Part shown: positions 49,224 to 55,200 of the stretch, piece after piece
Layout: each line of letters starts with the position of its first letter
How positions within the stretch are numbered: the first letter of the stretch is position 1
Assembly: GCA_947044405.1 (NCBI GenBank)
Contig: CAMRHE010000067.1
Span: forward strand, 5,771,501 to 5,835,500
DNA: 64,000 nt
Reading direction: 5' to 3'
DNA from: Leptodactylus fallax
Taxonomy: Eukaryota > Chordata > Amphibia > Anura > Leptodactylidae
The notes under the pieces: model-generated
The model's database searches: none
The model's input: the letters and a program-made list of their open reading frames with translations, nothing else
Told to the model about the DNA's origin: nothing
Position numbers and translations under genes: made by a program

Positions 49224-52200
49224 CCATCATGTAATGTAGTGCTTTTGGTTACAGGATTTGGTGCTGCTATGATTTGATTCCCCTCTCCCCTGTAGTTATA
49301 TAGGAGGTAACACTTAGGTCTGATACAATGTAATCTATCATTAGACGTCATAAAAACCCATTCTGTTCTTAAACTTTATTTCCTCTTTGCACAAGCCTGT
49401 AATGTTCAGCTTGTAGTTGTGGCGGGGGACCCGGGGGTGGATCATGGTCTTCCACTAGTTTCTGGGTTCCCGTGTTTCTGTTGATTGTGTCCAGGACATG
49501 AACTGAGAATGATATTTTTATTACACGTCTGACAGAGCCACAGTAGTTTTACTAAGATCTAAGAGTCCCTAAAAGGTCACGGCAACTATCTCATTTATGT
49601 CAGTATCCACAATGTGTGTGTACAGAAAGCAAACTCTTACCTACATTGTAGCCGCGGCAGCGCAGGCCGCTTTGATCCTTACCTATAAACCGTGCTTGCA
49701 TAAGCCATTTAATTGAAGCAGCTCATTTTATGGGGGCCTGTAAATCTTTTTCATATGCATTACATTATCTGGAGCAGGATTTAATGCCGGCCCTGCTCTT
49801 TATAAGAAGCTACTTTGGCTGTGAAATAACATGGAGGGCTGCAGGATTTGTCTCTCCTACCATGAGATTTCCCAAAATGCTTTAATTTTAATCTCGCCAA
49901 ACACTGGGCCGGTCATGGGGTTTACTTATTGGTCTGTCCAGGACAGGGCAAACATTCTGCTGTCAACTAGGGCTGGCTCCAAGCAGCGGGAGCAGGCAGG
50001 AAGATATTAACCCCGTAATGCCTTATCACTGACTCATTCATGTGCAGTAAATTCCAGGCCTTTTCATTTTACTTTTCAAGATTGCAATAAGTCAACACAT
50101 TAGTAAGCAATTTGCTGACATTAAGATGGATTACTTGAAAAAAATGACTCCTCGGAGTGCAGAAAGTTCACCTGGGTGTTCTCCTTCTTAGTCTTTTTTT
50201 ATCTTTGTATATACTTTTTTCCAGACTTTTGTATTCTCCTTGCTCTACTTTAGCTAATTTCGGCATTGTGGAGCTGTTAACACGTCTTTGTTGGCTTGTT
50301 GGCCGTGTGGAGAATAAAAACCAGTTACAGGTGAATACGTCTTTGTTGCATTTTTGTGTGTACTGTGCTCTTTAATGGGGGGGGGGATTTACACATTGGC
50401 ACGGGAGCCTTTAACCTGATGTATGAATATACACGCACAGATGTGTCCACTAACTTTGCTTCAGTGTGTTAAAGGGGTTTTCAGGGACTTATTAATTGCA
50501 GACCTATACTTAGGATAAGTTATCAATTAAAGATTGTCAGGGGTCTGACACCGGGGCCCTTGCCGATCAGTTGTGTAGTGTAGAAGTTGAGGTGCTGCAG
50601 CCTTTACACTACGCATCAAGCACAGTGCTGTACATTTGTATAGCGGCTGTTGGATCTTATTGAATGGGATAGAGCTGCGATCAGACCAAGTGACCGATGA
50701 ATGTGACATCACATGTCCCTTAGAGAGCACCACTGCCGCTTCAAACAGTTGGTTTACAGGGCCCGGGTGTTAGATCCCCAAGGAACTTCAATTTATGACC
50801 TATCATATGCTTATCCATAAGCAACATTATCAGGATACTAGCAGAAGGACCCGGCTTAGCATGGGTATATTTCATTTTTTGTTTGTGGCCCCATAAGAAT
50901 TGGCCAGTTTTGCACTTGACATCCAATATGGCAGTCCAGTATAGGTACAGTCTATTTATGGCTGTGTTGTTATGGAAACCTGGTAAATGAAATGTGAACT
51001 TATATTGGCTGATACACATCATATGACTGAATATTTAAGGACCTGCGAACTGCTATTGAGTCATACAGGTCATAAATAGCTTGGTTGATATGGAAACCTT
51101 GTGTTAAGCTGTGTGTATGTGTGAGTATGTGAGCCAGAGGGCGCTGTGGAGAGACCCAGGCCCAGCCCTGAAAAGGCCTTCAGCCACACCTTTGGATGGG
51201 GGGCGTGTAACTCCAGAGGACTGGAGTATCCTGCTTGGAGCAGGAGATGGTGGACCCAGCTGGACAGATAGACGATCTGTGCCAGGAGGGCTGAGGTCCA
51301 CCGGGGACTTTTTCTAGAGTTGAGCAAGAGTCAGGCTAGCGAGGGGCTCTATAAGTGAGTTAGGGCCCTAACTGTGGTCTAGGTTTTTTGTTGTTTTGTT
51401 ATGTTGCAGTTAAGCTGAATAAAGCCAGTTTTATTTTACGCTTGGACCGTCTGAAAGCTATCTTTCCGGCGCCCAGTACCACGAACCACCGCTGTCCGGA
51501 CCAGGAAAAGCTGCCATTTTGAGTCTAATTCCCCCCAAGTTGTCTCATATGGTGGAGAACGCGCGCATAAAGAGATCCACGCAAGTCCTGGAAGACAAGT
51601 GGTTTGTGATTGCAGTGTGCATTGTGGCCTACAGCTGGAAGAAATCTGTGATTTCAACTGAAGAAACCCAGGAAGGGGTGAGTGAATTGCAACATAGCAA
51701 GGTGTTTGTAAAACCTGGTGAAAGTAAAACTCTGGAAGAGGAATCCAGGGAATGGACTTTGTGTATACTGTGGCACAGAAGTCTGTGAAGTGTTTGCTGA
51801 TGGCAAGAAAGTGAGCAATGTGTATAGAAGCTGGATATTGCAAACAGTCTATGTGAAAGGCTATGGTGCCATGTTGGTGTTTTCTGTGGAAGACAGAAGA
51901 AAATGCTGGTTGTTGTAGTGCCACATAAGTTAACTGTTTGAATACATGTGACTGCTGAAGATAGCAAAAAGTTGCTGCCGGTTGAACCCAAGGTTGCTGT
52001 GGAATATTGTGTAATCTTGTTAGTAAACCATGGGAAAGAAAAAGAGAATTTCAGCTTGTAAAAAAGCAGAGAAGTTATGCACAGGTTTATTAGTGCAGCA
52101 GTCTGAATGCAGAGAGACACAAAACCCAGAACAGATCATGTGGAGTGCAAGTAAAGATAAAGGGTTGCATGAGAGTGACTCAGTTTTTCTAAAGCACCTC

Positions 52201-55200
52201 TGTTCTATGAATGAATATGTCCCTGCTGACTGTATATCTATGACTATGACTATGTCTCATACTGGAGTGCATCAGAGCGCCAAAGATGGAAATATTATGG
52301 TGCAGGAGCTTCAAGATGAGAATAAAACCATCAGGTTCATTTATGAAGATGAAATATCTGGTTGGAAACGGCAATTTGAGGTATTAGAAAAAGAGAACCT
52401 TAATTTGAACCTGAAGTTAAAAAAAGATCTTGAATCTATGAAGAGGTTATATCCTAGTCATTGTGAAAATGTGGCACTGGGTTTGCCTGGAATGGACTGT
52501 GTCACTGAGAAGGAGTTTCCTGAAATGAAATGTGCTCTATCTAATGAAGTTATACAGAGTGTAGAGCAAAAGCAAGTGCTTGAGAAGCAATTGCAGGATT
52601 TAAAGGAGCAGCATGTCCAAGACTCCATTGCCAAAGAGAGTGTCATTGAAAAATTAAGAGATGACCTTGAAACTGCTAAACGTGAGAGAAGTGAATTTTT
52701 GCAGTGTCAATCAGAATGTCTGGTTGACAAAGTCAGGATGTGTGAAAAACTTTCGGCTGCATTAATTGACAAAGAAAATGAAATTGCAGAGCTGAGGAAA
52801 CATGTCTCTGACCAAGAGAGTGATTTAGAATCTGTGGTGCAGACATTGCAGTCAGAGCAAAACTTGCATGCACTAAAGCAGGTTCGCCTAAATAGTGAAA
52901 TCCACGAATGGCGAAGCAGAGCTGGAGTTCTGGAACAAAGAGAAAGGGAACTCAAAGCTAGAATATGTAGCCTGGAGAGGGCGCTGTCAGGATCTTGTGA
53001 AGATAATGAGAAATTGTCTGTTTTGGTGCAAAATAAAGACAAAGAATTGATGGAGATGTCGTCTGTCCATGCTCAGAAAGTGCAAACCTTACAGGAGAGT
53101 CACAAAAAAGTAGACTCAACTTCGAGAGCTGCAACTAAAAGTCACAGAAGGGGACAGGTTTCGAGCAGAACTGCTAGACAAGGCAAATGGACTGCAGGTG
53201 GAAATGGATAATGTCACAGGGCTTCTTTCTCAAGCAGACAGCAAGTTTATCAAACTTTCCAAAGATTTGTCTACACTAGAATCTCAGCTTCAGGACACTC
53301 AGGAACTTTTGCAAGAAGAAACTCATCAGAAGCTTGACCTTAGTACAAAACTAAAACAAATGGAAGATGAGAAAAATGGTTTCCTTAAGCAACTAGAGGA
53401 AGAGAAGGCTCTTTCTGCTAGATATGCAGAAGAACGTGACCGTGCTGAAGCAGAGGCTTGTGGAAAAGAGACCAAAGCTCTTGCCTTGGCTCGCTCCCTA
53501 GAAGAGGCCCTTGAATTGAAGGCTGAGTTAGAGAGGTTCAACAAGCAACTGCGCACTGAAATGGAGGATTTGGTTAGCTCCAAGGATGAAGTTGAGAAAA
53601 ACCTGGAATCTGTGCAGATATTGTATGAGAACAAAGCTAATGCTTATGACAAGCTGGAAAAGGCCAAGAGAGAATTGGACCTCCAGATAGAAGACATGAG
53701 GATTCAGATTGAGGAAGATCTGCAAGTTGCAATAGTAGAAACTGAGATTGAAGCTGCTCAGAAAAAGGTGGCAGTGAAGAAAGTTCCGGAACTGGAATCA
53801 GAGATTTGTGTGCTGCAGAAGGTGCTAGAATTGGAGAAAGCTGTCAGCATAGAGGCAGAGAAAGCAGAGCCATTAAGGCAGCCAGAATGTGTAACCAAAA
53901 AGCATCTGGGTACTGACAGTAAAAACTGTGATGTTGAAAACTTGGTATCCCAGTCCTCCGTTGTTAGCACAGGGAATGAAAATAACTTGAAGAATGGACT
54001 AGAGTGTGGAAGTGGTTCTCCGGCTGCCGTACAGGTGTGGAAGCATTATACAGAAACCATTCCAATATATGATGTGGCGGCAGTTAAAGACATACCAGAA
54101 AATGTAGTTCAGCGTGATCTATTTTGTGAGGGTGTACGGTATGGCCCTGGTGCAGAAGGAGAAGATATTGCGGTACAGAGCTTGTGTATCTCAAACAAAG
54201 AGGAGAGCAAGCGGCCTATGTCTCCTAAACTTCTAAGCCTTGATGGTGATGGTAAAGTTTGCTTTGAGATGAAGGTTACAGAAAAGGTACCCGTGAAATA
54301 TTTATACTCTAAAGACATTGATGTGCATGAAGTACGTGTTAGCTGGTATCTGAGCTCCTGTGGATTCGTGATAGGTGAAGATGAAGATTCTTACGGCTAT
54401 TCACTAAATGAATCAAGGTCATGCCATGGGATGGCTGAAGACTATGGCGAGAAATGTGATGAAAATGATGTGATCTCCTGTACGGCGAATTGTGAAGGTG
54501 CTGAAGCAAAACTTGCCTTTGCACAGAATGGCCAGGATCTTGGCGTGGCATTTAAAGGGAGGAGAAAAATGAGAACTCGACGGAGCGGTATTTGGAAGAA
54601 GAGACCGCCAGATTGGGACTTCTGGAGAGACACTGGACAGGCATACTTGATTGAAGAGGGACTTCGTCATAGGATGTCTCGTCCCATTGTAACTCACCCC
54701 ATGGGTAGTGAGCTGAGGGGGAGGGTATGTGAGTATGTGAGCCAGAGGACGCTGTGGAGAGACCCAGGCCCAGCCCTGAAAAGGCCTTCAGCCACACCTT
54801 TGGGTGGGGGGCATGTAACTCCAGAGGACTGGAGTATCCTGCTTGGAGCAGGAGATGGTGGACCCAGCTGGACAGATAGACGATCTGTGCCAGGAGGGCT
54901 GAGGTCCACCGGGGACTTTTGCTAGAGTTGAGCAAGAGTCAGGCTAGCGAGGGGCTCTATGAGTGAGTTAGGGCCCTAACTATGGCCTAGGTTTTTGTTG
55001 TTTTATGTTGCAGTTAAGCTGAATAAAGCCAGTTTTATTTTACGCTTGGACCGTCTGAAAGTTATCTTTCCGGCGCCCAGTACCACGAACCACCGCTGTC
55101 CGGACCAGGAAAAGCCGCCATTTTGAGTCTAATTCCCCCAAGTTGTCGCAGTATGTCAAGATCACAGGATCAAAAGGATCCTGTGATTTTCCATTGGTCC

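Follow-up and report, generated by a model that had tools for sequence, protein, structure and literature searches.

Can an animal retrotransposon assemble a new gene from pieces of several host genes, and does the element gain anything from the product? The question is raised by a long terminal repeat (LTR) element at positions 51120-55150 of a 64,000-nucleotide stretch of the genome of the frog Leptodactylus fallax (contig CAMRHE010000067.1, positions 5,771,501 to 5,835,500), which as a whole is called the window here. A first-pass annotation, made from the sequence alone, had described a young LTR retroelement whose coding region is captured host myosin heavy-chain sequence. According to our analysis, the element very probably belongs to a non-autonomous LTR family with many copies and has been shortened internally; its only long frame joins a coiled-coil-like part to pieces of at least four host genes (hnRNP U, HIP1, Velo1 and MYH9), which probably entered stepwise by template switching. 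It has an LTR structure and a spliced hnRNP U piece, and its relatives stand at many places with duplications of their own and with varied sets of modules.

Structure and coding content of the window element

The features of the element and its borders are as follows.

51115..51119, no strand: left target-site duplication, GTATG (sequence comparison)
51120..51547, + strand: 5' LTR, 428 bp, TG...CA (LTR alignment)
51548..52029, + strand: leader, frames broken in the window copy, common to 11/11 two-LTR copies
51550..51566, + strand: candidate primer-binding site TGGTGGAGAA..., TGG-initial, 3' of the 5' LTR
52030..53106, + strand: open reading frame 1 (ORF1), coiled-coil-like, ~360 codons, start codon in the context A(-3), G(+4)
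53107..53587, + strand: MYH9 rod module, human amino acids (aa) ~1253-1348, then ~1450-1519
53588..53720, + strand: short coiled coil (EKNLESVQIL...), shared with relatives that lack the main MYH9 block
53721..53866, + strand: coiled coil weakly similar to MYH9 aa 1082-1133, also in L058-L060
53876..54247, + strand: Velo1/Bucky ball module corresponding to L. fuscus aa 124-288, with an internal gap of 41 aa
54248..54556, + strand: hnRNP U module corresponding to L. fuscus aa 281-383, a portion of the SPRY domain, spliced
54557..54715, + strand: tail of the frame, family-wide, no match found
54716..54725, + strand: polypurine run AGGGGGAGGG, preceding the 3' LTR
54728..55150, + strand: 3' LTR, 423 bp (LTR alignment)
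55151..55155, no strand: right target-site duplication, GTATG (sequence comparison)

With a TG...CA LTR pair, a purine run and a target duplication, the element has the make-up of an LTR retrotransposon, and the matching LTRs, the 5-bp GTATG duplication, the candidate primer site and the purine tract of the first-pass annotation are all in place. The two LTRs differ by 10 mismatches in 423 aligned bases (Kimura two-parameter distance 2.4%), or by 12 mismatches (2.9%) when aligned with MAFFT. A 28-base LTR pattern with up to three mismatches matched the two LTRs and nothing else in the window, with no match in 100 shuffles; a 27-base LTR pattern gave no match in viral contigs, nor was there a match in phage records. 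The target duplication, 4 bp across the family, reads 5 bp in the window copy. Degenerate repeats with a spacing of ~113-118 bp flank the element on both sides (50946-51121 and 55240-55470).

The coding region of the window copy comprises two reading frames, with a one-base shift between them at the upstream border of the myosin part. The myosin II rod that had been recognised by its motifs survives a profile search (Pfam Myosin_tail_1, E 7e-54), human myosin-9 is the top match in a sequence search of the PDB (E 4e-42), and MYH9 is the nearest paralogue (115 bits versus 97 for MYH11 and 92 for MYH10; in a second comparison 83 versus 80.5 and 77 bits). Myosin is, however, one captured gene among several: a protein search with the second frame, covering candidates of 0.55-1.75 times the query length, returned Velo1/Bucky ball and hnRNP U of frogs plus one myosin (37 proteins at E <= 1e-3 among 7999 scored, the best from Leptodactylus fuscus), and longer copies carry HIP1 in addition. 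Since no protein among the matches listed covers more than 28% of the query, none of them has the fusion. The absence of pol motifs was borne out, with no pol family in the window-copy frames scanned by profile. ORF1 had no protein match at E 1e-3 among proteins of 216-687 aa or ~673-2142 aa, and the leader no Pfam match above the cut-off.

Compared with L. fuscus, the Velo1 piece is 58% identical including its gap (77% without it) and the hnRNP U piece 79% identical over aa 281-383. In a tree, the Velo1 piece clusters with its L. fuscus counterpart (support 88/83, unstarred), on a branch of 0.20 versus 0.069, and the end branch of the element in the hnRNP U tree is 0.25 versus a median of 0.046. 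These placements point to a hyloid frog as the probable host. Both source genes are present in the genome. The host hnRNP U gene, on contig C200, has introns, and its alignment with the window piece falls into four blocks bordered by GT...AG host introns, so that three introns are gone from the element. The host Velo1 gene lies on contig C69 and shares about 88-93% DNA identity with the module. Three Velo1 residues are present in element copies and in L. fuscus and missing from the present host gene; the capture is therefore probably older than this host deletion, as judged from sequence comparison. Pieces of several unrelated host genes thus stand between the LTRs.

Copies with different module sets

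A genome search with the LTR scored 40 of 4589 candidates, at 94-100% identity, and 36 of these 40 best matches were read, four not having been fetched. Apart from these four, the places comprise 19 LTRs of 11 two-LTR elements (the window copy, L009-L015, L018, L020 and L024), two part-interior stretches (L028 and L034) and 15 single LTRs without family interior within ~4.8 kb. The 11 elements account for only 19 listed LTRs because L018, L020 and L024 are each listed with one. An ORF2 protein search scored 78 places from 5579 first-look candidates (206 matches); the counts of both searches are lower bounds. Matching 4-bp duplications flank six of the two-LTR elements (L009, L010, L011, L012, L014 and L020), 11 of the 15 single LTRs (L016, L019, L021, L022, L023, L026, L029, L030, L031, L032 and L035) and the further locus L058 (GGTA). 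The duplications of L015 and L018, in AT repeats, are little informative, that of L013 is imperfect and L024 has no match; of the remaining single LTRs, L017, L027 and L033 lie in AT repeats and L025 is without the LTR start. The first-pass annotation had proposed a search for copies at other places with different target duplications, and these exist. Within elements, the LTRs diverge by 1.2-2.9%, except in L024 (16.9%).

Host-derived modules fill the interior in 11/11 two-LTR elements; frame-by-frame pol profiling refers to the window copy. The candidate primer site reads TGGTGGAGAA... in 7/11 copies, including the window, and TGGTGCTACGG... in 4/11 (L009, L011, L015 and L024); L058 carries a third version. 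Near L016, L034 and L035 there are frames for RVT_1, rve or aspartyl protease; they are on the strand opposite to the LTR, Ty3/Gypsy-like and in one case with a chromodomain, and are taken as other elements. TRIM and LARD elements, which are small or non-coding LTR elements, lack a long coding frame, unlike the present family, four copies of which have frames of 662-1305 codons.

The longest of these frames, open as it stands, is in L014, where ORF1 is followed by MYH9 (~1253-1520), the short coil, HIP1, a further coil, Velo1 with the 41 aa kept, hnRNP U and the tail. HIP1 is identified by the Pfam family HIP1_clath_bdg (2e-17 in L014, 1.5e-9 in L060), with a weak PDB match (E 0.004). The window copy is without the HIP1 part, which in longer copies stands after the short coil, without ~102 MYH9 codons (missing at about 53404) and without the 41 Velo1 residues; HIP1 is also missing from L010 and L018. 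A scrambled MYH9, with blocks ~1394-1440 and 1082-1133 placed after 1519, was considered and rejected: MYH9 ~1253-1520 runs in unbroken order in L014, and L058-L060, from which this stretch is missing, contain the two later blocks. The coil at 53721..53866 is shared with L058-L060 and may therefore be a diverged myosin piece of older date, or a coil of unrelated origin.

Further copies are rearranged. In L012 and L024, ORF1 and MYH9 pieces are relocated downstream of the other modules. In L028, the MYH9 and HIP1 parts are separated from the tail and an LTR by ~3.6 kb of other sequence (998-4624), either an insertion or another captured piece; a frame in this stretch is weakly endonuclease-like (0.0004, under the Pfam cut-off). 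In L034, a gag-pol element on the opposite strand lies upstream of HIP1, Velo1 and hnRNP U parts. In L009, an in-frame stretch of ~490 bp (3349-3840) between coil and Velo1, not seen in other full copies, has no Pfam match above the cut-off; it may be old element sequence, since its start (LSQTDMSDLSSD) is likewise found ahead of hnRNP U in L058 and L059.

These last two loci and L060 have module sets that differ from that of the window copy. L058 (188-3877) has its own LTRs, 96% alike and ~72% like those of the window, which enclose ORF1, short coils, hnRNP U aa ~185-383 and the tail, without the main MYH9 block or Velo1; a HIP1 query gave only a 76-nt match, to the query start. L059 carries hnRNP U to about aa 605, with a gap inside, including the SPRY and a P-loop AAA domain. 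L060 carries HIP1, Velo1 and hnRNP U without the main MYH9 block, and its fetched stretch ends within ORF1. L058 and L060 are uninterrupted at the position that the MYH9 block occupies in L014 and the window copy, and both borders of the block resemble their sequence at that position. From the host, the hnRNP U pieces of L058 and L059 diverge by 2.6-2.7%, that of L060 by 6.9% and those of 29 late copies by 5-12%, mostly about 9%. An hnRNP U search gave 154 matches (134/169 candidates scored), most of those listed lying just upstream of the captured SPRY part, and all three loci read from this list (L058-L060) belong to the family. The upstream part recurs at many dispersed loci on many contigs, with open frames of up to 773 codons; these loci are probably a large early-type set of the family.

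Proposed serial capture and its rivals

Because relatives are found without the main MYH9 block (L058 and L060), without Velo1 (L058) or with a longer hnRNP U piece (L059), the modules were probably added serially. In the simplest order, hnRNP U would have entered early, HIP1 and Velo1 next and the main MYH9 block last; its absence from L058 and L060 places this block probably among the later additions. Reverse transcriptase would have switched template between packaged element RNA and cellular mRNAs, which fits internal mRNA pieces, one of them spliced, and shared sequence at the borders. The capture site was probably the female germ line, where Velo1 acts: Velo1/Bucky ball is described as the germ-plasm organiser in oocytes (PMC5080839, PMC9546911). 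The copies would move in trans and require a helper, using the enzymes of an unseen pol-bearing element, and further jumps between short similar stretches would delete and shuffle modules. The window lineage lacks hnRNP U 185-280, and the gap is bordered by two DGK/NGK codon stretches that resemble each other, as a jump of this kind would leave it.

Several observations weigh against this account. The proposed sequence of captures is based on three early-type loci, and loss of MYH9 by a jump between similar short end sequences, possible but less simple, would also give the state of L058 and L060. Both have weak myosin-like matches outside the main block (tblastn, 29% and 39% identity; in L058 also Pfam Myosin_tail_1 at 2.9e-8, under the cut-off), possibly an older, diverged myosin piece. 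Splicing, and with it cDNA origin, was demonstrated for hnRNP U only, because neither the MYH9 nor the HIP1 gene of the host was located in this genome, and the captured Velo1 range falls within one open host stretch of 693 codons. A pol-bearing relative with the family LTR, which the first-pass annotation had suggested looking for, did not turn up among the 36/40 LTR places read, the pol frames near three of them being on the opposite strand. Finally, ORF1 has no Pfam family above the cut-off and no PDB match at E 1 (chance-level ones only at E 10), and the tail likewise has no Pfam match above the cut-off and no meaningful PDB match.

How the modules were acquired is separate from whether they matter, and we see an even chance that they are pure passengers, with nothing selected and the frames open only through the youth of the copies. 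The ratio of nonsynonymous to synonymous variants (N:S) mostly favours this. In 11 copies analysed by module, N:S is 116:42 for shared variants and 274:103 for singletons, compared with neutral ratios of 2.4-3.1 for the former, and no module has shared variants significantly below neutral (lowest P 0.24); nine full copies gave 68:33 and 173:59 (P 0.18). The 711-bp Velo1-SPRY-tail part is without constraint, given shared and singleton ratios of 42:8 and 88:36 and 10 stop variants of 184 (about 4.1% expected), in a sample of the window and 20 loci taken in ORF2-search list order and so biased by protein likeness to the window copy. Nine copies of Velo1 compared with the host (20:5, 9:0, 30:3, 27:4, 38:7, 31:9, 18:3, 26:3 and 29:5; neutral 2.76) share history, so that the tests are not independent; they suggest amino-acid change at or above neutral, nominally above. 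For hnRNP U the counts, which include silent changes of the host since capture, are 2:6 in L058 (P 0.006), 3:5 in L059 (P 0.03), 14:7 in L060 and about 19:9 in late copies, where the ratio of the corresponding rates (dN/dS) is roughly 0.6-1.0. Change did not differ between host-invariant and variable sites (Fisher P 0.17 for SPRY, 0.83 for Velo1), and the predicted structure of the shortened SPRY was poor (mean pLDDT 52) and set aside.

Against pure passengers stands the whole frame with 8 stop variants of 543 versus about 25 expected, a deficit located mostly in ORF1, MYH9 and HIP1 (5 versus about 19), although gaps in the same copies are frameshifting in 21 cases and in frame in 5. In addition, 49 of the first 78 rows of the ORF2 search, a list ordered by similarity to the window copy, are free of stops over the part that matches. 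In a test for conservative change, SPRY gave 13/22 (P 0.011-0.015) and Velo1 9/27 (P 0.55-0.64). In the light of the stop, N:S and gap counts, the open frame is not taken as proof of function. Since the tests are mixed and mostly negative, the frame appears at most weakly kept, perhaps for the coiled-coil part; the Velo1 and hnRNP U modules are likely passengers, and the case for a working chimeric protein is weak.

The first-pass annotation had suggested that the coiled coil may replace a Gag-like scaffold, or may be a passenger; near-neutral amino-acid change and a stop depletion that is weak and confined to the 5' part do not establish a replacement of Gag. A stronger form of this idea, in which capture was adaptive, the fused coiled-coil scaffold stands in for Gag and the Velo1 and hnRNP U parts once steered RNA or protein to germ plasm or nuclear ribonucleoprotein, appears doubtful to us; if it held, the excess change in Velo1 (30:3 and 26:3 versus 2.76) would reflect host conflict.

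The modules might instead have been captured once, by an LTR element that met a host gene already fused by duplication. The single frame of long copies such as L014, with its 1305 codons, agrees with this; we nevertheless consider it very unlikely, as L058, L059 and L060 have different module sets and the host Velo1 and hnRNP U genes lie on different contigs. Least likely of all are processed pseudogenes made by long interspersed nuclear elements (LINEs) that landed in an otherwise normal LTR element. Splicing of the hnRNP U piece would agree with them, but the pieces are internal gene parts, their order recurs in copies with different LTR duplications, and there is no sign of a poly(A) tail (longest A run in the window interior 7) or of a pseudogene's own target duplication, border duplications having been judged by eye only. 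Serial capture is therefore the reading that we retain.

Elsewhere in the window there are remains of Tc1/Sleeping Beauty-like transposases (17018-18109, 35695-36696 and 38302-39164; Pfam HTH_SB, HTH_Tnp_Tc3_2 and DDE_3), a 580-codon reverse transcriptase frame on the minus strand (61717-63459, RVT_1 4e-27), tandem arrays at 1-1003 (46-bp unit), 13362-13646 (29-bp) and 42232-43280 (40-bp), and a frame with an IQ motif (47171-47653, 5e-5), perhaps a host gene exon.

Comparison with known systems

No animal LTR family is known to us that combines four host genes and varies in its modules from copy to copy, and no animal counterpart was found in the one literature collection searched. Retroviruses with two transduced genes, such as erbA-erbB or myb-ets, also carry more than one host cDNA per retroelement; they are infectious, depend on helpers and form no germ-line family.

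With gene transduction by LTR elements, it is usually the end product that is on view. In the present case a single vertebrate genome keeps varied module sets, two intact source genes and the junctions of joining and loss, and therefore how reverse transcription builds chimeric genes, and whether selection keeps them, becomes directly countable. Copies with differing module sets would show the stepwise assembly of a new gene by an animal retrotransposon, and the capture of Velo1 hints at where the events happened.

Three systems described in the literature come near to this. In LTR-mediated retrocopies, packaged cellular mRNA gives rise to chimeric cDNA through template switches, possibly several, at microsimilarity (PMC5408686); the review, in the parts considered here, covers retrocopies of parental genes, whereas the frog family joins several unrelated genes in one propagating family. 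The vertebrate LTR elements CrocERV29/31, of crocodilians, captured KIT-ligand or nectin3 mRNA and spread together with it. The gain of KIT-ligand cost no viral domain, nectin3 stands where env would be, and purifying selection is reported (PMC4299795). These elements hold one host gene each, whereas the frog family holds several gene fragments, no pol and no clear purifying selection. The maize LTR retroelement Bs1 transduced segments of H+-ATPase, xylan endohydrolase and beta-1,3-glucanase genes, from which a chimeric gene formed (PMC13317346). As an LTR element with pieces of several unrelated host genes, it appears to be the closest known case, a likeness in kind with no claim of common descent: Bs1, as described, is a plant element with three genes, whereas the frog family combines at least four genes with a coiled-coil-like part, in many copies and in varied module sets.

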